The position numbers were made by a program, and so were the translations under genes. A stretch of DNA of 64,000 bases. Source: an uncultured Bryobacterales bacterium. Its GTDB lineage: Bacteria > Acidobacteriota > Terriglobia > Bryobacterales > UBA6623. Below the pieces are notes generated by a model. That model had not been told where the DNA came from. It made no database searches and saw only the letters and a program-made list of their open reading frames with translations. Location: the NCBI GenBank assembly GCA_958295955.1, contig OY282420.1, forward strand, positions 214,236 to 278,235, written 5' to 3'. Positions 4,138 through 46,251 of this stretch are shown piece by piece (the stretch's first letter is position 1; the number at the start of each line of letters is the position of its first letter).

Positions 4138-5799
4138 ATGACTTCCAATTCTCTGTACTACGGCGACAACCTGGATATTCTCCGGCGCTACGTCCCGGAC
4201 AAGAGTGTTGACTTGGTTTATCTCGACCCTCCCTTCAAGAGCGACCAGACCTACAACGTTCTGTTTCAGGAGAAGGACGGCTCGCAGTCGGCTTCCCAGA
4301 TCAAGGCATTCGAGGACACTTGGCACTGGGATGAACAGGCGGCCCGGTCCTTTGAGGAGGCGGTCGAGGCTGGGGGGCAAGTAGCAGAGGCTATGCGCGC
4401 CTTCAGGACGCTCCTGGGGACCAATGACATGCTGGCCTACCTGTCGATGATGGCTCCCCGATTAGTGGAACTCCGCCGGGTTCTGAAGGACACCGGCAGC
4501 CTCTACTTGCACTGCGACCCTGTGGCGAGTCATTTCCTGAAACTGTTGCTGGATTCGATCTTTGGGCCGGGAAACTTCCAAAATGAGATTGTCTGGCAGC
4601 GCACCCTCGCGCACAACATGAGAACAAATCGATTTGGAAGAGTAAACGACATCCTTCTCTTCTATTCAAGATCCGCTAAGTTCTTTTTCAAACAGGTGTA
4701 CACGCCCTACAGCAAAGCGCAGCTCAAGAGATACCGGGCGGATGAGGATGGGCGTTTGTATAAAGCAGAGAATCTCACATTCTCAACCGTTAATCCGTCT
4801 CGCCAATTCGAATGGCGCGGCGCCAAGCCGCCGCCTCACCGATCATGGGGAGCATCTCGCGAACAGCTTGAAGAGTGGTATGCCGAAGGCCTAATTCTTT
4901 TGAAGAAAGATGGCACACCGCGCCTCGACGGACTAAAAGTTTACCTTAGTGAGATGCAGGGAAAGCCGGTTAACACTAACTGGACCGACATTCTCAGAAT
5001 CGGAAACACTTCAGCAGAACGCCTCGGTTATCCCACTCAGAAACCAGTAGCTCTCCTGGAGCGGATCATCCAGGCCGGCAGCAACGAAGGCGCTACCGTT
5101 TTAGACCCCTTCTGCGGATGCGGCACGACTATTGCAGCAGCCCAAAAGCTCGGTAGGCGCTGGATCGGGATCGACATCACCCATTTGGCCATCTCCCTGA
5201 TTCGTCACCGTCTGCGGGATTCGTTCGGTAAGGACTTCCGGCTTGAAGTCATCGGCGAACCGACCAGCCTTCAGGATGCGTTCGCTCTGGCGAAGCAAGA
5301 CCCCTATCAGTTTCAGTGGTGGGCGCTCGGTCTGGCCGGAGCGAGGCCGGTTGAACAGAAGAAAGGAGCCGACCGGGGCATCGACGGCAGGCTCTATTTC
5401 CATGATGAAGGACGGGGCGGCAAGACCAAGCAGATCATCTTCTCGGTGAAGGCCGGTCACGTCACAGTGTCCCACATCCGCGACTTGATGGGTGTTATCA
5501 ACCGTGAGGATGCTCAGATTGGAGCTTTCCTGTCCATGGAGACTCCAACCTCATCCATGCGTAGAGAAGCGGCCTCATCGGGTTTCTACGAGTCTCCCTG
5601 GGGAAAGCATCCACGCATTCAACTACTCACGATTGAAGATCTTTTGGGTGGGAAGAGCGTAGATTACCCCCTAGTCGCAGACGTGACTTTCAAGAAGGCG
5701 CAACAGGTGAGATACAAACCGCTGGAGAAGCAGCAGGACCTACAGATGGAGCCTAAGTCACACAAAAAGAAAAAGCGAAATCCAAGCCACGGGAGCTAG
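4138..5799 (+). CDS. Site-specific DNA methyltransferase fused to Mrr-like restriction endonuclease domain
   Basis: A 553-residue two-domain protein. Residues about 1-360 form a beta-class N6-adenine/N4-cytosine methyltransferase: catalytic DPPF at residues 30-33 precedes the SAM-binding DPFCGCGTT near residue 323. Residues about 390-520 resemble an Mrr-type PD-(D/E)XK endonuclease: GADRGIDG, then a strand with FSVKAG (the VK lysine) and an HIRDLMGVI helix. The C-terminus is lysine-rich. Modification and cleavage in one chain would suit a type IIG/IIL-like or modification-dependent enzyme. Target and activity are unknown. It probably forms an operon with the preceding nuclease-like gene and is compositionally foreign to the host backbone. 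Confidence 0.82.
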   Translation: MTSNSLYYGDNLDILRRYVPDKSVDLVYLDPPFKSDQTYNVLFQEKDGSQSASQIKAFEDTWHWDEQAARSFEEAVEAGGQVAEAMRAFRTLLGTNDMLAYLSMMAPRLVELRRVLKDTGSLYLHCDPVASHFLKLLLDSIFGPGNFQNEIVWQRTLAHNMRTNRFGRVNDILLFYSRSAKFFFKQVYTPYSKAQLKRYRADEDGRLYKAENLTFSTVNPSRQFEWRGAKPPPHRSWGASREQLEEWYAEGLILLKKDGTPRLDGLKVYLSEMQGKPVNTNWTDILRIGNTSAERLGYPTQKPVALLERIIQAGSNEGATVLDPFCGCGTTIAAAQKLGRRWIGIDITHLAISLIRHRLRDSFGKDFRLEVIGEPTSLQDAFALAKQDPYQFQWWALGLAGARPVEQKKGADRGIDGRLYFHDEGRGGKTKQIIFSVKAGHVTVSHIRDLMGVINREDAQIGAFLSMETPTSSMRREAASSGFYESPWGKHPRIQLLTIEDLLGGKSVDYPLVADVTFKKAQQVRYKPLEKQQDLQMEPKSHKKKKRNPSHGS

Positions 5800-6235
5800 A
5801 CTGGAACGGCAGGATGGCGCTAAAACCGGACTACGGGCTTCGATTGAAAAGGGTATTGTCAATAAACTGCTAATCGGCGCGGGCGCGGCGCTTGAGGATC
5901 GGCCTGTCGTCTTCTTCTGCGGGCGGGGCGTCTTCATCGACCTCGATCGTATCCGCCGTTACGTTCGACACCTGGAGCCGGCTGTCGAGTCATATCATGG
6001 GGCGCCGGCGGGCTCGTTGAACGCCTCCGCTCCGCTTAAACCCATGCTATTCTGGGTAGTCGAAATTGCGAACCCGAATGAGGGCGGCCCAGCTTCATCT
6101 TCCATGCAGCGTACGAAACGCAGCAGCGTCAACCGCATGAAAGGCAGACGCCGGGACACAGCGCGGTGGGCGCCCACCGGTCATGTGGATGCTACTTCAG
6201 CGACTTATCGGCAACAGTGAGAGGAGATCATAACA
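5800..6235. other. Intergenic region containing the left 88-bp repeat
   Basis: A 436-base stretch with no credible gene. It contains the left copy of the 88-bp repeat (5871-5958) and unrecognised DNA afterwards. It ends with a good ribosome binding site, AGGAGA at 6222-6227, eight bases before the ATG of the DUF262 gene. A 67-codon open frame at 6017-6220 looks random. Confidence 0.6.
5871..5958 (-). repeat. Left copy of 88-bp perfect direct repeat (3' end of M48 protease gene)
   Basis: Identical over 88 bases to 8504-8591. In minus orientation it encodes the last 28 codons of the M48 protease gene. The base before it changes the stop from TAA to TAG (bases 5870-5872). Sequence similarity ends abruptly on both sides. 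Together with the right copy it brackets 2.5 kb that contains only the DUF262-HNH-AlbA_2 gene. This looks like a long target duplication or attachment-site pair. Confidence 0.95.
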
Positions 6236-8365
6236 ATGTATATTCGAGAGCTACTCGACAGTATCCGCAAGCAGGACATTGTGCTACCGGAGTTTCAGCG
6301 TGAATATGTATGGACCCGTGAACAGGCCAAACAGCTTATGGTGTCCTTGTACAAACAATATCCAGTCGGTGGGCTGCTATTGTGGAAAACCGATAAACCC
6401 CCGGCACTGAAGAATGTCAAGGAACTACCGGACAAGCTCGGCACCGTCGAAGTGCTTCTTGACGGGCAACAGCGTTTGACAACGTTGCACATGTTGACAA
6501 CCGGTGATATCCCCTCCTTTTACACTGAAGCAGAAATCGAAAGCGACCCACGCGATCTATACTTCAATCTAAAAACGACCGATTTCCAATACTATCAGCG
6601 GTCACGCATGGATGGTGACGCCATGTGGAGGCGTGTGGTCGATTGCTTCACCGACAGCACTCTCAACGTGATGGCTATTGCGGATCAAGGGGCCGACGAC
6701 CCAAACGACAAATTCGATCTCGCGAAACGACTGAACGACAATCTAAACCGGCTCCGCCAAATCCGCGAACACGATCTTCCCGAACAAGTGGTGCCGCATC
6801 ATGCGGCATTGGATGACGCGATCGACATTTTTGACCGCGTGAATAGACAAGGCACAAAACTGACGGATGCTGAACTGGCCTTAACACACGTGACCGGCAA
6901 GTGGCCTCAAGCTCGGCGCGTGATGAAGGAAAAGATCGACGAATACAATGCGATCAACTTCTACTTCGGCCTGACATTCATGACACGCGCACTGACTGCG
7001 ACGGTTACCGGGCGTGCCCTATTCGAAACGATTCATGACCGCCCACGACAAGAACTGAAAGCGGGATGGGCGAAACTTAGCCGCACTTTGGCCTACCTGG
7101 TCAACCTCCTGCCGCATCAGGCATTCATTCATTCTACCGATGATCTGAATACGACCAATGCGTTGGTTCCGATTGTTGCGTACCTGTCGCGCAACAACAG
7201 TATTTTCCCCGATCAGAAATCCATCCACCATGCCGTGAATTGGCTTTATTCGGCTCTGCTTTGGGCGCGCTACGCGGGCCAGACGGATCAAAGACTGGAA
7301 GCGGATTTGTCGATTGTCGCCAAAGAAGTTGAGCCTTGGGAGTTGATGCGTAGGCAGATCGTCGACCAGCGCGGCCGTATCGAGGTAAAGGCAAGTGATT
7401 TTGAGGGGCGGACGGCGCAGCATCCGCTCTTTCGACTGGCGTTCGTGTTGTCGAAAGCCAATGGCGCCGTCGACTGGTTCAACGGCATACCGTTGGGCGC
7501 GACGCATGGCGCTGCGTATGCAATACACAGTCACCACATCTTCCCGCAAGCGCTCCTCTACAAGTCAGGATGGGATTCCGACAACTATCTGCACAGGCAA
7601 ATCGTTAACGAGATCGCGAACCGCGCCTTTCTGACGGCGGCAAGCAACCGGTCATTGTCGGATACGGAGCCGGCCGATTATCTACCTCGAGTCGAGGAGA
7701 AGTATCCCGGCGCTCTAGCTAATCAATTTATCCCAATGGACCCTAAATTGTGGCGGGTCGATCGTTACACCGATTTCCTTAATGCACGGAGGGAACTCCT
7801 AGCGCTCAAGATCAATGAGTTCCGTGCCGCCTTGATCACCGAACCGGAGGAAATTCGCCATCGCTCCGTCGCTGAGTTGATCGCACTCGGTGAAAGCATG
7901 GTGCTCGAATTCAAAAGCACGCTTCAGTGGGATGTGGTGCAGAACAAGCAAAACACGGAACTGCGCCACTCCGTCCTGAAGACAATCGCGGCATTTATGA
8001 ACAGCGAGGGAGGCACACTGGTCATCGGCGTCGAGGACAATGGCAATATCTATGGGTTAAGCAACGATCTAAAACTTATGGGCCAGTCACGCGATCGCTC
8101 TCAGCAACTCGACCTCTTTCAGCAGACGCTCAGAAATATCATTTTCGATAACATCGGTTCGGGCACTACGCGGTACATCGATACACGCTTTGAAGATATC
8201 AAAGGTAATACTGTGTGTGTCGTCACTGTGGAGCCAATCCGCGACGGCGTGTTCTTGAAATCATCCAAGGGTAAAGACAAGAGTAAAAAATTCTTCATAA
8301 GAGTCGGCAATATAACGCGATCACTCGATCCTGAGCAGACGCATGAGTATCTAAACAGAGACTAA
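6236..8365 (+). CDS. DUF262 (GmrS-like) + HNH (DUF1524-like) + AlbA_2 (Schlafen-type) fusion, candidate defence protein
   Basis: A 709-residue three-part protein. Residues about 10-250 are a DUF262/ParB-Srx-like NTPase domain: LPEFQREYVW near residue 18 and LLDGQQRLTTL near residue 73. Residues about 430-485 carry a DUF1524-like HNH nuclease signature, HSHHIFPQ followed by an NRxFLTxxSNRSLSDxEP-type segment. This DUF262 plus HNH layout is that of type IV GmrSD and related enzymes that cut modified phage DNA. The C-terminus (about 550-705) is an AlbA_2 domain: LEFKST, then FMNSEGGTLVIGVEDNG. AlbA_2 is found in Schlafen-like and transcription-regulatory proteins and is sometimes a nuclease. The gene is single, AT-rich relative to the host, and bracketed by 88-bp repeats. 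Function is inferred from domains and context. Confidence 0.85.
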   Translation: MYIRELLDSIRKQDIVLPEFQREYVWTREQAKQLMVSLYKQYPVGGLLLWKTDKPPALKNVKELPDKLGTVEVLLDGQQRLTTLHMLTTGDIPSFYTEAEIESDPRDLYFNLKTTDFQYYQRSRMDGDAMWRRVVDCFTDSTLNVMAIADQGADDPNDKFDLAKRLNDNLNRLRQIREHDLPEQVVPHHAALDDAIDIFDRVNRQGTKLTDAELALTHVTGKWPQARRVMKEKIDEYNAINFYFGLTFMTRALTATVTGRALFETIHDRPRQELKAGWAKLSRTLAYLVNLLPHQAFIHSTDDLNTTNALVPIVAYLSRNNSIFPDQKSIHHAVNWLYSALLWARYAGQTDQRLEADLSIVAKEVEPWELMRRQIVDQRGRIEVKASDFEGRTAQHPLFRLAFVLSKANGAVDWFNGIPLGATHGAAYAIHSHHIFPQALLYKSGWDSDNYLHRQIVNEIANRAFLTAASNRSLSDTEPADYLPRVEEKYPGALANQFIPMDPKLWRVDRYTDFLNARRELLALKINEFRAALITEPEEIRHRSVAELIALGESMVLEFKSTLQWDVVQNKQNTELRHSVLKTIAAFMNSEGGTLVIGVEDNGNIYGLSNDLKLMGQSRDRSQQLDLFQQTLRNIIFDNIGSGTTRYIDTRFEDIKGNTVCVVTVEPIRDGVFLKSSKGKDKSKKFFIRVGNITRSLDPEQTHEYLNRD

Positions 8366-39831: not shown

Positions 39832-40914
39832 TCAGTTCCCCGTAATGGCCTGGTCGGGGGCCGGCTCTTCCATCAGGCGGTTCAGGTCGCGGACCGGGAT
39901 TTCCAGCAATTCAGCCGCCTCGGCAGCGGAGAGCGCGCCTTCCGACAGCGCGCGGAAGCATAGACGCTCGAAACGCATGGGCTTTTCGCCGGCCAGTGCG
40001 CAGGGCTCTCGATACGGCGGCTTGCGCCAGCCGCGGCGGATGCATTCGTCGAACAGCCGCTGGAACAGAGTCGGCCCGAATATGCCGAGGTCCCGGCAGC
40101 GCAAGAGCAAAGCCTGCACGCTGACGCCGAATATCCGCTTGAGTTCGAGGAGTTCGCCCCAGCCGATGGACTTGCGGCGCCGGCCGACCTCCGCCCGCAG
40201 CTTCTCCGCGGGCAGCAGGAAAGCCGCGGCGAAGCGGTTCGCGGCCTCCTCGCCGTCCATCTTGGCGGCAACGTCCAACACCATATGGCCCAACTCGTGC
40301 GCCAGCGTAAAACGCTGCCTCTCGCCCCAATGTCCGCTGTTCACGACGATCACGGGCGTGGCGCTGCCGTCCCCGCCGCGCGCCCGCGCCGTCAAGCCGT
40401 CCACGGCGGCGAGGTCTATGGCGAGAACCTTGATCCCGCGCTCCTGCAGCAACTCGGCCATGTTGGGAATCGGATTGGGTCCCAAGCCCCAATGGGCGCG
40501 CAGCCCGCGCGCGGCATACTCGACCTCGGCAAGATCGCACAGCACGGGCCAGGGGGCTTCCCGCGGCTTGTCCCAAGCCGTGCTCGACAGGCCGAGAAGC
40601 TCTTCCACCGCCAGATAGCGCTCCAGCAAGCGCAAAACGCGGGCTTCGGTCCGGGTTTCCTCACGCTTGCTCGGGATCGCCTTCTTGCGGAACTCGACAC
40701 CCTCCAGAACCATGCTCCGGCCGCCGGCCAGATAGGCCGCGGATACGCCGAGCGCGTCGGCAAGCACAGCGAGGACGCCCGCGCGCGGCATCGTCTCGTC
40801 GCGCTCGTACTTGCTGATCGCCTGCGCCGTCACCCGGTTGCCGATCTTGGCCTCAAGGCCGCGAAGAGACAAGCCCGCGGCGGAACGGGATAGTTTGAGC
40901 CTTTGGCCGATCAT
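39832..40914 (-). CDS. XRE-family HTH regulator with ImmA/IrrE metallopeptidase domain
   Basis: 360 residues: HTH_3/XRE at about 1-65 (LSLRGLEAKI, VTAQAISKYERDETMP) and an ImmA/IrrE zinc peptidase with TLAHELGHMVL near residue 205, followed by a conserved helical tail (NRFAAAFLLPAEKL). This fused architecture is typical of phage and defence regulators in which the peptidase cleaves or is activated to release repression. It is transcribed divergently from two nuclease-like genes, across a near-consensus promoter carrying a palindrome, so it probably controls them. The trigger is unknown. Confidence 0.9.
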   Translation of the reverse strand: MIGQRLKLSRSAAGLSLRGLEAKIGNRVTAQAISKYERDETMPRAGVLAVLADALGVSAAYLAGGRSMVLEGVEFRKKAIPSKREETRTEARVLRLLERYLAVEELLGLSSTAWDKPREAPWPVLCDLAEVEYAARGLRAHWGLGPNPIPNMAELLQERGIKVLAIDLAAVDGLTARARGGDGSATPVIVVNSGHWGERQRFTLAHELGHMVLDVAAKMDGEEAANRFAAAFLLPAEKLRAEVGRRRKSIGWGELLELKRIFGVSVQALLLRCRDLGIFGPTLFQRLFDECIRRGWRKPPYREPCALAGEKPMRFERLCFRALSEGALSAAEAAELLEIPVRDLNRLMEEPAPDQAITGN

Positions 40915-40936
40915 GGTTTTAGCTCCATGCTGAGAG

Positions 40937-40966
40937 TTGACAAAAGGATTCTAAAATCCATAATAT
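40937..40966 (+). promoter_or_regulatory. Near-consensus sigma-70 promoter for the nuclease pair
   Basis: TTGACA at 40937-40942, an 18-base spacer, and TAATAT at 40961-40966, unusually perfect for this GC-rich sequence. The predicted transcription start (about 40973) nearly coincides with the ATG at 40975, so the mRNA would be leaderless or almost so. Confidence 0.72.
40946..40959. promoter_or_regulatory. Operator-like palindrome between -35 and -10
   Basis: A perfect inverted repeat, GGATT-CTAA-AATCC, sits inside the spacer of the promoter at 40937-40966. This is the ideal place for the divergent XRE regulator to bind and repress. Binding is inferred. Confidence 0.5.
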
Positions 40967-40974
40967 ATCAACTT

Positions 40975-41805
40975 ATGTACAAAGCATTGTATCCTATCCT
41001 GTTCCGCGACAATTGGCCCGCCCGCGGGCTGGAACATGCCATCGCCTCCATAGACCCCGATGCGTTGGCTGCCGAATACAAGGCGCTGCGGAAAAACGCG
41101 CCGCGCCGCCGTGAAGTTGGCAAAGCATACTTCGTCGAACATTCCGGGGCGCCGTCATCGGGAAGCTCCAGCAACCGGCTGGAAGAGCACTACGCAATGG
41201 CTCTCTGGAATCTCTCGTGCCGCCTGCCGCGGCGCTCCGGCGGTTGGCATCGCTTTCTCGACTACCAAGCGCCGCTCAAAGCCAGGCGAGCGGACTCCGG
41301 CATCGGCAAGGTCGATCTGCTCGGCATCACGGACCGGGGCAGATTGATTATTGTCGAATTGAAGTATCCGCGCAGCGGCCGCGGCGATTCGCCGGCGCAC
41401 GCTCTGATGGAAGGGCTGCGCTACGCCGCCATTGTCGAAGCCAACCTGCAACCCATAGCAATCGAGGTCAAAAGAAAATTGGGCGTCAAGCGGGTTGACG
41501 ACAGGACGCCGCCCATTGCGCAGGTGCTGGGGCCGGGCGCGTGGTGGCGCGGTTGGCTCGATCCCGGACTCAAAAACCGGGCGGCGGGCGATTGGAATCG
41601 CGCTTTCGCCCGACTCGCTTCAGCGCTCGAGGCGCAAATCGGCGTGACCGTCGAATGCATGGCGACGGATGACAATGCAAAACTCACCCTTGGCTTGAAT
41701 GGGCAAGCGCCGGCGCTCGACTGTCCGCCGGACCTTTACCATATTCATCTCGACCGCAATCCGCCCGAATGCGAAGCCCTGCCGCCGGTCGACCGCCATG
41801 CATGA
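40975..41805 (+). CDS. PD-(D/E)XK-like putative nuclease A
   Basis: 276 residues if started at the ATG just after the promoter; upstream in-frame ATGs (40903, 40930) lie in or before the promoter and are unlikely. The core GKVDLLGITDRGRLIIVELK gives D114, E128 and K130 of a PD-(D/E)XK nuclease, followed by a helix with EGLRYAAIVEA as in related folds. No HTH or ATPase is fused. It overlaps the next gene by eight bases. Context (XRE-ImmA/IrrE regulator, second nuclease) suggests a defence or programmed DNA-damage function, which is inference. Confidence 0.68.
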   Translation: MYKALYPILFRDNWPARGLEHAIASIDPDALAAEYKALRKNAPRRREVGKAYFVEHSGAPSSGSSSNRLEEHYAMALWNLSCRLPRRSGGWHRFLDYQAPLKARRADSGIGKVDLLGITDRGRLIIVELKYPRSGRGDSPAHALMEGLRYAAIVEANLQPIAIEVKRKLGVKRVDDRTPPIAQVLGPGAWWRGWLDPGLKNRAAGDWNRAFARLASALEAQIGVTVECMATDDNAKLTLGLNGQAPALDCPPDLYHIHLDRNPPECEALPPVDRHA

Positions 41806-42748
41806 ACAGCAATACCATGACTTGATCCTGCGAGCCCTGTGGAACTGGGCCGACCGGCATTGCGCGGGGATGCTCGACGGCCGCCGCCGGCAGGGGCGCC
41901 CGCCGGTTTTGCAGCCCGAATTCGCCGCGATGAACGTCATGGTTCCGCCGGACGGAACCCATGCAGCCGCGATTCGCGGCGCCGTCGCGCCGGAGCAGCG
42001 CCACCGCTGGTTTCACAGCATGCGCAGCTCTCAGGCGCTGGCGCAGAGCGTTTTCGGGGCGGCCGCCGCCTTCGACCGTCTGGACGTCCTGGAGGGCATC
42101 GCCGCCGAATGCGGCCGGCCTGCGTTCTTTACGGACAGCAGCAACTGGGGTCTCGAACTGGAGCACGCGGTCAATACTTTGGGCGAGCGGGTTCCGACCA
42201 GCATCGACGTGCTGCTGCGCGGACCGGCGCGGCGGGTCGCCGTCGAGTGCAAGCTCATGGAGCGCGAGTTCGGCAAATGCTCGCGTCCGGCTCTGAATAC
42301 CGATCACCCGAGTTATTGCGACGAGAACTATCGGGTTCAGGCGGGGCGCAGCGAACGGTGCGCGCTGACCGAGATCGGCATCCTTTATTGGCAGTACTTG
42401 CCGCGTCTCTTCGACTGGCCGGCGGACCGCGACCACGAGCCTTGTCCCTTTGGCGCGGTCTATCAATTGGCGCGGAACGCGCTCGCCGCCTGCTTCACTG
42501 CGGACGGCGGCTTCGACCCGAAGCGGGGGCACGCGCTGATCGTTTACGATGCCCGCAACCCTGCCTTTCAATCCGGCGGCGAAGCGGAACGGCAATGGCG
42601 CGACGCGCTCGCCGCCTGCCGCGCGCCGGGACTGCTGCGCCGCGTAAGCTGGCAGCGCCTGGCCGCGGCCTTCGCCCCGGCGCCGGACCTGGCATGGCTG
42701 GCCGCGGGGCTGCGCGCAAAGTACGGGATCGAACACTCATCGCCTTGA
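41798..42748 (+). CDS. PD-(D/E)XK nuclease B, PGN_0703-like
   Basis: 316 residues from the ATG that overlaps the end of nuclease A. The core SIDVLLRGPARRVAVECK (D137, E150, K152) followed by EFGKCSRP resembles the PGN_0703 family of putative restriction endonucleases. A conserved QLARNALAA helix and YDARNPAF strand lie in the C-terminal half. Translational coupling implies that nucleases A and B work together, perhaps as a heteromer. Host-like GC content distinguishes this pair from the AT-richer operon that follows. Confidence 0.7.
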   Translation: MHEQQYHDLILRALWNWADRHCAGMLDGRRRQGRPPVLQPEFAAMNVMVPPDGTHAAAIRGAVAPEQRHRWFHSMRSSQALAQSVFGAAAAFDRLDVLEGIAAECGRPAFFTDSSNWGLELEHAVNTLGERVPTSIDVLLRGPARRVAVECKLMEREFGKCSRPALNTDHPSYCDENYRVQAGRSERCALTEIGILYWQYLPRLFDWPADRDHEPCPFGAVYQLARNALAACFTADGGFDPKRGHALIVYDARNPAFQSGGEAERQWRDALAACRAPGLLRRVSWQRLAAAFAPAPDLAWLAAGLRAKYGIEHSSP

Positions 42749-42973: not shown

Positions 42974-43002
42974 GTGAATAATTCGGGGGGGGGGGGTAGA
43001 AT
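42974..43002 (+). promoter_or_regulatory. Candidate promoter with poly-G tract in the spacer
   Basis: A weak -35-like GTGAAT (42974-42979), a 17-base spacer made mostly of G, and a good -10 TAGAAT (42997-43002). Slippage in the G run would change spacer length. This is the same design as the phase-variable porA promoter of Neisseria. Confidence 0.42.
42985..42996 (+). repeat. Homopolymer of 12 G
   Basis: The longest single-base run I see in the window. It lies 72 bases before the start codon of the DUF262 gene at 43069. Long poly-G runs are mutable by slipped-strand mispairing; they are also error-prone in sequencing. Confidence 0.9.
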
Positions 43003-43068
43003 TGTGCTGCCCGCAGAACGCCGACGCCCCGATCCGACAATCAGCTATGTACTGGAGATAGGTTTGTC

Positions 43069-44205
43069 ATGAGTGCAGTCAATTCTTTGCCCGGTAGTGC
43101 GGTGGACAACGAACAGGACAGCGGCCTCGAAATTGAACAGGAAGAATCTGCGGACTCTGTCGTTATCAAGCCTTTCAACCCCGAGAAGATCAAGGTCCGC
43201 ACAGTCAATGTCGTCGTCGATCAAATGGTCTCGCGTATCGACCATGACGAAATCGATCTCGCACCGAATTTTCAGCGTAAGGCCGGCATTTGGGACAATA
43301 AACGCAAGAGCCGGCTTATCGAATCTCTTCTTCTGCGCATTCCTATACCGGTTTTCTATGTAGCATCGGATGAAAACGAAAGATGGTCCGTGGTAGATGG
43401 ACTGCAACGGACATCCACAATCCATAACTATGTGAAAAATAACTTTCCACTGAATCAGCTCGAATATCTGGATCTTGACAAACGTCTCTACAAGAACCTC
43501 TCACGGCCACTGCAAAGACGAATCAGCGAGACCCAGCTCATAGTGAACGTCATCGAATCCGGAACTCCAGAAGAGGTTATGTTCAATATATTTCGACGTA
43601 TCAATACCGGTGGAATGATGCTCAACGGACAAGAAATTCGTAACGCTCTGCATCCAGGTCCGATTCGGGAGTATCTCGAAAAACTGGCTGAGACTGATGA
43701 ATTTCTGACCGCTACAGATCACTCGATCAAGACTCATCGCATGGCAGATCGGGAATGCATACTACGGTTTCTTGCTTTTCATGTTGAGCCATGGGAGAGA
43801 TATTCCGCCAATGATCTCGACGGTTACCTTGGGAATACGATGAAAAAAATCAATAGAATGAATTCATATGAGCGAGAAGTACTGACAAAGGATTTTCGGA
43901 GAGCCATGCGCTCTGCATTCAATATTTTCGAAAACGATGCTTTCCGAAAACGTTACGAATTTCCTGGAAATCGCCGTCCGATCAATAAAGCTCTGTTCGA
44001 GTCGTGGAGTGTGGGACTGGCTCGTCGCTCGGATCAAGAAATCGGATTCCTCGTACATAACAGAGAAAAAGTCATCCATGAATTTAAGTCATTGATGAAC
44101 GAAGACCGCGAATTTGAAACAGCAATCTCCTACTCTACCGGCACTCCCAGCCGTGTAAAGAAGCGCTTTAGGGCGATCGAAGAACTCATCAAAGGGTGTT
44201 TTTGA
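43069..44205 (+). CDS. DUF262 protein (ParB/Srx-like NTPase fold), first gene of a three-gene candidate defence operon
   Basis: 378 residues, DUF262 only. The acidic N-terminus (1-35) is followed by LAPNFQRKAGIWD near residue 64 and the nucleotide-site VVDGLQRTST (D110-R114). A helical C-terminal domain ends in a GTPSRVKKRFRAIEEL segment typical of stand-alone DUF262 proteins. No HNH/DUF1524 nuclease is fused, unlike the DUF262 gene at 6236. The stop shares one base with the next start (TGATG). Related GmrS/SspE-type domains hydrolyse NTP and sense DNA modification. A similar sensor or licensing role here is inference. Confidence 0.85.
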   Translation: MSAVNSLPGSAVDNEQDSGLEIEQEESADSVVIKPFNPEKIKVRTVNVVVDQMVSRIDHDEIDLAPNFQRKAGIWDNKRKSRLIESLLLRIPIPVFYVASDENERWSVVDGLQRTSTIHNYVKNNFPLNQLEYLDLDKRLYKNLSRPLQRRISETQLIVNVIESGTPEEVMFNIFRRINTGGMMLNGQEIRNALHPGPIREYLEKLAETDEFLTATDHSIKTHRMADRECILRFLAFHVEPWERYSANDLDGYLGNTMKKINRMNSYEREVLTKDFRRAMRSAFNIFENDAFRKRYEFPGNRRPINKALFESWSVGLARRSDQEIGFLVHNREKVIHEFKSLMNEDREFETAISYSTGTPSRVKKRFRAIEELIKGCF

Positions 44206-45308
44206 TGCTCCAAAAAATCAAACTGAAAAACTTCAAATGCTTCGAAAGCATAGATTTGGCATATGCACCGCTAACTTTGCTGTGCGGCTTGAACGGAATG
44301 GGCAAGAGCAGCGTCTTGCAAATGCTGCTCTTGCTGAGGCAATCGTCCAATTCCGGAGAGTTGGATCAGGGAAGACTTGTTTTGGGTGGTGAGTTCGCGG
44401 ATCTCGGTACCGGTCAGGACATCCTTTTCGAAGACGCTGAAACAGATATGGTGGAGTTTGAGCTTCACTGTGACGATGCTCCAACACCTTGCAGATTGTC
44501 TTTCAATTATTCGAGAACTGCAGACGAATTGCGGACTAGAGACGATGTGCCGGCACAGTGGAGAGATATCCCGCCGCTGGGCGGCCATCTGATCTACGTC
44601 AATGCCGAGCGGGTCGGTCCTCGCAAGCTCTATAGCCACTCCGAGGTATTCGCCCGCAGCGGTAATCTCGGTGTGCGCGGTGAGTACGCATGGAACTATC
44701 TCCATGCTCAACAGAATAAAACCCTGCAGCCAACCGACCCACGCTGCCTCGATCTGCCCGGTCGGCGCCTGATCGAAATTGTCGATCATTGGATCCAGGA
44801 AGTGACTCCCGGCGCGCATCTTCAACTGGAAACGATCCAGGATGCCGATGCCATCCTCGCCGGTTTCTCATTCGACCGCCCCGGCGATGTGAGGACCAGA
44901 CGCTACCGCGCTACAAACGTCGGTTTCGGGCTGTCCTACACGCTGCCGGTGCTGATGGCCCTGTTGGCTCCTCCCGGCTCGCTGTGCCTGATCGAGAATC
45001 CGGAAGCTCACTTGCATCCCCGAGGCCAGACCAAGCTGGCGGAACTCGCCATCCGCGCCTCTCTTGCCGGCGTGCAAGTAATTGCCGAAACGCACAGCGA
45101 TCATTTCATCGACGGCGTCCGAATTGCCGTCCGAGACGGGCTCATTCAGCCGGATGGGACCGCCTTCCACTACTTCGAACGTGACGGAGGCAAGACGGTG
45201 GTATCTTCGCCACGGGTAGATGTCGACGGTCGTCTTTCATCCTGGCCGGCGGGGTTTTTCGATCAGTACGAAGAAAATCTGGCCAGGCTGCTCGCACCGA
45301 AATCTTGA
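44205..45308 (+). CDS. AAA ATPase with DUF3696-type C-terminus (OLD/ABC-ATPase-like)
   Basis: 367 residues. Walker A GLNGMGKSS (residues 28-36) comes right after the LKNFKCFESIDL strand typical of SMC/ABC-like AAA_15/AAA_21 ATPases. The late segment LIENPEAHLHPRGQTKLAEL (about 260) is the Walker B/D-loop form of DUF3696 proteins, followed by VIAETHSDHFIDGVR. No TOPRIM nuclease is visible, unlike OLD proteins. It is coupled to the DUF262 gene (TGATG) and to the next gene (one-base gap). Such ATPases are sensors or motors in many phage-defence systems. Its role here is inferred. Confidence 0.88.
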   Translation: MLQKIKLKNFKCFESIDLAYAPLTLLCGLNGMGKSSVLQMLLLLRQSSNSGELDQGRLVLGGEFADLGTGQDILFEDAETDMVEFELHCDDAPTPCRLSFNYSRTADELRTRDDVPAQWRDIPPLGGHLIYVNAERVGPRKLYSHSEVFARSGNLGVRGEYAWNYLHAQQNKTLQPTDPRCLDLPGRRLIEIVDHWIQEVTPGAHLQLETIQDADAILAGFSFDRPGDVRTRRYRATNVGFGLSYTLPVLMALLAPPGSLCLIENPEAHLHPRGQTKLAELAIRASLAGVQVIAETHSDHFIDGVRIAVRDGLIQPDGTAFHYFERDGGKTVVSSPRVDVDGRLSSWPAGFFDQYEENLARLLAPKS

Positions 45309-45309
45309 C

Positions 45310-46251
45310 ATGCGCGAAATGATTCTCAATCACGCGAGCCTGTCCGTTCCCGGTTCGGACCGTGATTTAATTTCCGAGTGGCTCAAAGATGTCGTGAGCG
45401 GCATGAACGGGCTTATTCAAAACAATGTTGCCTCCAAGAGTTTGCGCATGTCCCAAGGTTTTCATGACACGCCGTGTTTGTCCGGTTATTCATTGAACGA
45501 CGCCTGTCAAGAACTGCGAAGGCAGGGTTATAGAGATGAGTACATATCTCTGCTGAGATTGGGGGCCAAAATGCCCCTTTTGAGCGACATTGGAGAGAGT
45601 GTCAAAGACCGGTTTCGCGCTTGCGAGGAACGAACGCTGCCTGCGAGTGATGGAGAACCCCTGGTCTTGTGCGCTATTGCCGACGGGATAGCTGTCGGAT
45701 TCCCGTCGGAGCCGATCTGGGACCATGATCGGCTCTCAATCAGCTTCGACGAGTTGTTACCTGACGAAACGATCAGCGAAGCATCCGAAGAGATCGACCA
45801 GCTTACGCGTTCCGCACACGCCGAACCCATCTCTGATCGGCACCGCGCTCGACTCCGCGCAGGCATTGATCCCCTTAACTTGTGGGAGAACCGCCAAGCA
45901 ATCTTCCCCAATCTCGTCTTCGGCCCGGACGTTAAAGATAACCTCCAGGATTCCTCGCACTTGTTCCCGACCATTGTGAGGAAACTGGCGGACCTCGATC
46001 GGTCGGCCGGAGATTGGCGCGACATGGGCGGCCCAGCCCCTCCTTGGAGGACGAAAGTGTCGCCTGAGAGCATCAATACGATGGAAAAACCGGCTCGCCG
46101 GAAAGCACGCATGTTTCGATCTCATCGCGGTATGTCGGAACTGTTCGAATGGCACGCTCGTTGTGGCAGCGGTTATCGTATCCACTTTCGTTTCGACCGT
46201 GACTCCCGGGAAATCGAAATCGGATACATCGGGCCGCACCTGCCCCTTTGA
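45310..46251 (+). CDS. Unknown protein with RelE/ParE-like C-terminal segment, third gene of DUF262-ATPase operon
   Basis: 313 residues, starting one base after the ATPase stop. Most of the protein is unrecognised: a helical N-terminus, and a middle with EPIWDHDRLSISFDELL and LTRSAHAEPI. The last 50 residues (MFRSHRGMSELFEWHARCG, then YRIHFRFD and EIEIGYIGPHL) have the strand order and closing IGYIGxHL pattern of RelE/ParE-fold ribonuclease toxins or related folds. If real, this is the effector of the operon, with the ATPase and DUF262 protein as regulator or sensor. Homology is suggested by pattern only. Confidence 0.6.
   Translation: MREMILNHASLSVPGSDRDLISEWLKDVVSGMNGLIQNNVASKSLRMSQGFHDTPCLSGYSLNDACQELRRQGYRDEYISLLRLGAKMPLLSDIGESVKDRFRACEERTLPASDGEPLVLCAIADGIAVGFPSEPIWDHDRLSISFDELLPDETISEASEEIDQLTRSAHAEPISDRHRARLRAGIDPLNLWENRQAIFPNLVFGPDVKDNLQDSSHLFPTIVRKLADLDRSAGDWRDMGGPAPPWRTKVSPESINTMEKPARRKARMFRSHRGMSELFEWHARCGSGYRIHFRFDRDSREIEIGYIGPHLPL

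Follow-up and report, generated by a model that had tools for sequence, protein, structure and literature searches.

The locus and its genomic setting

Three co-directional genes, nsnA, nsnB and nsnC, occupy positions 43069-46251 on the forward strand of the 64 kb stretch of DNA that was analysed (the window). The genes, the putative functional domain of the third protein and a homopolymeric tract in the leader are listed below.

43069..44205, + strand: nsnA, DUF262/GmrSD_N (ParB/Srx-like NTPase) protein, 378 aa
44205..45308, + strand: nsnB, OLD/ABC-like ATPase with a C-terminal DUF3696, 367 aa
45310..46251, + strand: nsnC, third protein, 313 aa, with an N-terminal domain (residues 1-~185) and a predicted C-terminal RelE/YoeB-fold domain
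45865..46248, + strand: NsnC tail, putative RNase domain of RelE/YoeB/YafQ (BECR) fold, residues 186-313, from AlphaFold2, VIA-align and conservation
42985..42996, + strand: homopolymer of 12 G in the leader, 72 bases 5' of the nsnA ATG

The best start of nsnB is the ATG at 44205-44207, which shares one base with the nsnA TGA (TGATG), and nsnC begins one base past the nsnB stop. The GC content is 46% in nsnA, 56% in nsnB and 55% in nsnC, giving 52% across the operon, compared with 63% in the window as a whole. These coordinates and GC values bear out the initial annotation, which described three AT-richer genes whose junctions are a one-base overlap or a one-base gap. Its neighbours were likewise recovered with Pfam, i.e., HTH-ImmA/IrrE and REase-ARP genes upstream and the Bat cluster downstream. 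The operon start that it set at 42974 has to be moved, as no gene starts there and the segment is leader only, with the 12-G run.

The operon is variable at this site: in five same-family relatives that have the Bat genes (60-68% identity), 16-18 kb of sequence upstream of batA was examined and contains no nsnABC homologues. NsnB is 69% identical to its Spirochaetaceae and Pseudomonadales homologues but 58% identical to the homologue found in its own family; this greater closeness to distant groups suggests that the operon was acquired by horizontal transfer.

The G12 tract in the leader is the sole homopolymer of at least eight bases in the window, and runs of 10 or more G or C number about 11 in the 4.58 Mb genome. 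No such tract precedes nsnA in 13 other loci. It is possibly a slippage (phase-variation) tract or an assembly uncertainty, and it could make expression of the operon phase-variable in this strain.

The operon as a RelE/YoeB-tailed Menshen copy

Judged by its protein sequences, the window operon is a Menshen copy of the RelE/YoeB-tailed class, also published as ptuXYZ; the system is already known and only local details are new. All three proteins match their respective PADLOC models in identical order and orientation: NsnA over residues 15-376 (4.8e-144), NsnB over residues 3-365 (5.5e-103) and NsnC over residues 1-313 (PDLC03912, 2.7e-61). There is no structural difference from Menshen, and PDLC03912, the RelE/YoeB-like NsnC type present in the window copy, is one among many NsnC types already in PADLOC. 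We take the gene names nsnABC to denote the Menshen system, which was reportedly described by Millman et al. in 2022 and whose domain polymorphism is said to be treated by Li et al. in 2025 (NAR gkaf357).

Menshen has been reported to protect against phage, and it carries a DUF262 gene, adjoining a predicted OLD nuclease, whose mutation or deletion abolishes resistance (PMC10952713). The ptuXYZ operon (mBio 2025) encodes a DUF262 protein, a PtuA-like ATPase and a third protein in which a PIN-like N-terminal domain without catalytic residues precedes a C-terminal YoeB-related BECR fold; its authors name PtuX a putative nuclease, and the word Menshen is absent from their text (PMC11980606). Both ptuXYZ and the window operon have a DUF262 protein without DUF1524, then a PtuA-like P-loop ATPase, and a two-domain third protein whose C-terminal part takes a BECR fold related to YoeB, as predicted for the window copy. 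On this evidence, the two literature names ptuXYZ and RelE-tailed Menshen refer to a single operon family. The initial annotation took the combination for an undescribed one with no named system, and had set beforehand a match to an already named defence system as the finding that would overturn this view. Such matches exist, both to the PADLOC NsnA, NsnB and NsnC models and to the published ptuXYZ with its YoeB-like tail, and the Menshen assignment removes a false 'new system' candidate.

NsnA and NsnB carry conserved NTPase features without recognised nuclease domains

NsnA contains the GmrSD_N (DUF262) domain (Pfam, 3.7e-21), its residues V109-D110-G111-x-Q113-R114 are invariant in 10 homologues, and the DUF1524 nuclease domain (GmrSD_C) was not found by Pfam. 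NsnB matches AAA_15 (5.8e-23), AAA_21 and DUF3696 (1.9e-14); the protein ends in DUF3696, and Pfam found no TOPRIM domain. Its Walker A and IENPE/ETHSDH motifs are kept in 12 homologues, and its PDB sequence matches include PtuA (8ee4, 1.5e-4) and an OLD-family protein (6p74, 1.8e-9). Pfam and PADLOC thereby agree with the families first proposed, DUF262 for the first protein and a DUF3696/AAA ATPase for the second, and with the ATG at 44205 the Walker A lysine of NsnB is indeed K34.

The DUF262 NTPase domain links NsnA to GmrSD, BrxU and SspE; however, NsnA lacks DUF1524, and the ATPase and the putative effector are on separate genes here. Similarly, NsnB shares ATPase motifs and a sequence match with Septu PtuA and the OLD ATPases, but it has DUF3696, lacks TOPRIM and is not accompanied by a PtuB partner gene. 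Type IV restriction was rejected because NsnA lacks DUF1524, and a Gabija (GajA)/OLD nuclease because NsnB lacks TOPRIM.

Exchange of the NsnC tail

The C-terminus of NsnC varies between loci. We compared 50 third proteins, some of them near-copies, with profiles of the tail (residues 186-313) and of the N-terminal domain. The tail profile matches 33 of the 50 (E < 1e-10), and the N-terminal domain profile matches the window-like NsnC types. Two proteins, L042 and L047, have the NsnC N-terminal domain (7e-37 and 2e-28) without the window-type tail, and the tail of L042 matches the C-terminal part of the CARF-DUF2103 model. Another eleven combine the window-type tail with an N-terminus undetected by the N-domain profile, which extreme divergence could also explain. 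The tails of L043 and L111 weakly resemble the colicin E3 cytotoxic domain (Pfam 0.12 and 0.14). When the tail labels are placed on a tree of the 50 NsnB proteins, at least three changes of label are required by branches with good support, the labels other than the window type having been assigned partly by eye. The NsnC C-terminus has thus been exchanged while the putative sensing genes were kept, a pattern expected of an effector. Tail swapping points to NsnC as the Menshen effector, and the RelE/ParE-superfamily C-terminus also supports the earlier view of the third protein as the likely effector.

It is unlikely that NsnA or NsnB is itself the destructive enzyme, acting in modification-dependent restriction or as an OLD-type nuclease, with NsnC merely aiding recognition. 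This reading draws on the presence of DUF262 in type IV restriction enzymes, on the OLD-like character of NsnB and on published descriptions of PtuX as a putative nuclease (PMC11980606) and of a Menshen component as an OLD nuclease (PMC10952713). However, the nuclease domains that it calls for, DUF1524 in NsnA and TOPRIM in NsnB, are missing in Pfam searches, and the NsnC C-terminus is the part that swaps between toxin-like domains, as fits an effector.

The same RelE-like tail also ends proteins of ~450 aa (L136:3099-4433, L137:2593-3969, also L006 and L005) that have an unrelated N-terminus and no nsnA or nsnB nearby. At three further loci (L068:8046-8789, L069:5968-6711 and the end of L081), the third proteins after NsnB-like ATPases start with VLDxxLL, a motif that also opens PIN domains, and have no Pfam match; they may be Menshen variants whose PIN-type effector is intact.

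Distribution across phyla, plasmids and phages

The A-B-C arrangement recurs in several phyla, plasmids and phages, more than chance would give. The same order is found in Spirochaetaceae (L007) and Pseudomonadales (L008), in relatives of the window genome (L002, L039-L041, and the B-C ends of L003/L004), on plasmids (L073-L079), where the genes are annotated as DUF262, DUF3696 and hypothetical, in a Peduoviridae Vibrio phage (L080) and in viral contigs including L059/L064/L065. The conservation of the three-gene neighbourhood, which the initial annotation had asked about, is therefore evident from co-occurrence in the same order across these hosts and elements. An ORF of 252-336 aa directly follows nsnB in 29 of 32 viral NsnB loci; two of the remaining three are cut near a contig edge and one is without such an ORF. 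Viral scans with three NsnC alignments (A8, A9 and A5) yielded no contigs beyond those already found. For plasmids, tblastn with NsnC returned only 3 records, and NsnA and NsnB served as baits instead. Three viral contigs (L060, L061 and L062) encode NsnA relatives (35-36% identity) with no recognised adjacent NsnB, perhaps belonging to other DUF262 systems.

Occurrence on plasmids and phage contigs, together with the toxin-antitoxin type fold of the tail, is also what would be seen if the operon were a three-part toxin-antitoxin or element maintenance module, in which NsnA and NsnB neutralise the NsnC toxin and the main gain is persistence of the plasmid or phage rather than defence. We regard this as quite improbable. 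The operon lacks a small antitoxin gene and its NTPase motifs have been kept; moreover, PADLOC classes these families under defence, and phage protection by Menshen has been reported (PMC10952713). The maintenance and defence readings overlap.

A predicted YoeB/YafQ-like fold and a conserved His-Arg-His set in the NsnC tail

The NsnC tail is predicted to have the BECR/RelE-superfamily fold, a conclusion resting on the consistency of structural matches. The AlphaFold2 model of residues 186-313 alone, built from an alignment of 18 sequences, has a mean pLDDT of 91.8 and a pTM of 0.86. Foldseek against the PDB placed YoeB, RelE and their relatives at the top, with weak E-values (best 0.022). VIA-align gave moderate Z-scores, the best being 8.3 for Sa2YoeB, with 8.0 for both YafQ and E. 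coli YoeB, and aligned 78 residues with YoeB at 2.6 Å; all 50 entries shown are titled toxin or toxin-antitoxin, and YoeB, YafQ, RelE, HigB or ParE structures make up nearly all of the top PDB matches. ParE structures match at Z 6-7, and at the sequence level the tail is only ~6-19% identical to the toxins that it matched. The RelE/ParE-like C-terminus of the initial annotation is thus confirmed at the level of superfamily fold, and its extent is corrected from residues 260-313 to ~186-313.

Sequence searches returned little for NsnC. The protein has no Pfam match, its N-terminal domain included, and the tail and 18 homologues match no Pfam toxin family (YoeB, RelE, HigB, ParE and others); stray single-member matches were all that Pfam gave for the tail homologues and NCBIfam for the full-length homologues. 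A PDB sequence search with NsnC found no matches. The 18-row tail profile retrieved three unrelated PDB chains (best E 0.011, a human TNF-inducible protein), which we judged to be chance, and BFVD structures gave no convincing match to the tail. A full-length NsnC AlphaFold model from 3 sequences had a pLDDT of 35 and was discarded.

Conserved residues in the tail favour a YoeB/YafQ-like RNase over a ParE-like gyrase poison. H282 and R290 are invariant in 18 of 18 sequences, which are only 15-56% identical to the window tail, and H310 is present in 16, with Lys in the other two. In the model, H282 sits on a central strand, the next strand opens with R290, and H310 comes just past the last one. 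The catalytic residues of YoeB are, in order, Glu46, Arg65 and His83, and His50 of YafQ may replace Glu46 of YoeB (PMC3814384). The predicted tail resembles the YoeB, YafQ and RelE toxins in fold and in the order of its His/Arg/His set, whose positions appear to correspond; the Glu46 position of YoeB appears as His in NsnC, as proposed for YafQ. Unlike these toxins, the tail is part of a larger protein, with no antitoxin gene and no Pfam family match. The RNase assignment is favoured, from residue order and secondary structure, because the conserved residues follow the YoeB/YafQ order and ParE toxins are without such catalytic residues. A ParE-like poison or a non-catalytic RNA- or ribosome-binding domain would accord with the ParE matches and the low identity to any toxin, but it is very unlikely given the invariant H282 and R290 and the nearly invariant H310 at positions consistent with YoeB/YafQ.

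A proposed mechanism for the window operon

We think it likely that the window carries a Menshen (NsnABC) operon in which NsnA and NsnB act as sensor and switch and NsnC as an mRNA-cutting effector; the phage trigger, the complex, the ribosome dependence, the RNA cleavage and the roles of single residues are what we infer. NsnA and NsnB would form an NTP-driven infection sensor and switch, on which the N-terminal domain of NsnC would dock. The YoeB/YafQ-like tail would be an endoribonuclease kept inactive until phage infection, whereupon NsnC would be released and mRNA cleaved, probably on the ribosome. His282 would serve as the general base, Arg290 would stabilise the transition state and His310 would be the general acid. 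Translation and growth would stop, leaving the phage unable to multiply. In concrete terms, killing or growth arrest by this Menshen effector class is predicted to depend on three residues, H282, R290 and H310.

More tentatively, it is quite possible that NsnC is a chassis whose docking domain receives swapped toxin-like domains, YoeB/YafQ-like here and CARF-DUF2103-like or weakly colicin E3-like elsewhere. The window version would cut mRNA on ribosomes via a YafQ-like His-Arg-His site, and ptuXYZ would be one Menshen effector class.

Other defence-like genes

Several other genes in the window have defence-like features. At 39832-42748, an HTH and ImmA/IrrE protein matches RmrA of RosmerTA (PADLOC, 8e-50); the PADLOC RmrT model has no match to the adjoining gene. 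Beside the RmrA-like gene lies a protein of 300 aa whose nuclease-like matches are all weak; a REase-ARP protein (3.1e-24) overlaps it in another frame. At 4138-8365, a fusion of an N6_N4 methylase with an Mrr-like domain is followed by a GmrSD_N protein ending in a Schlafen AlbA_2 domain, and these genes are a possible further defence pair. Elsewhere in the same genome (L134:4513-6350), a second NsnB/DUF3696-like ATPase has directly downstream a small protein that appears PIN-like by eye.
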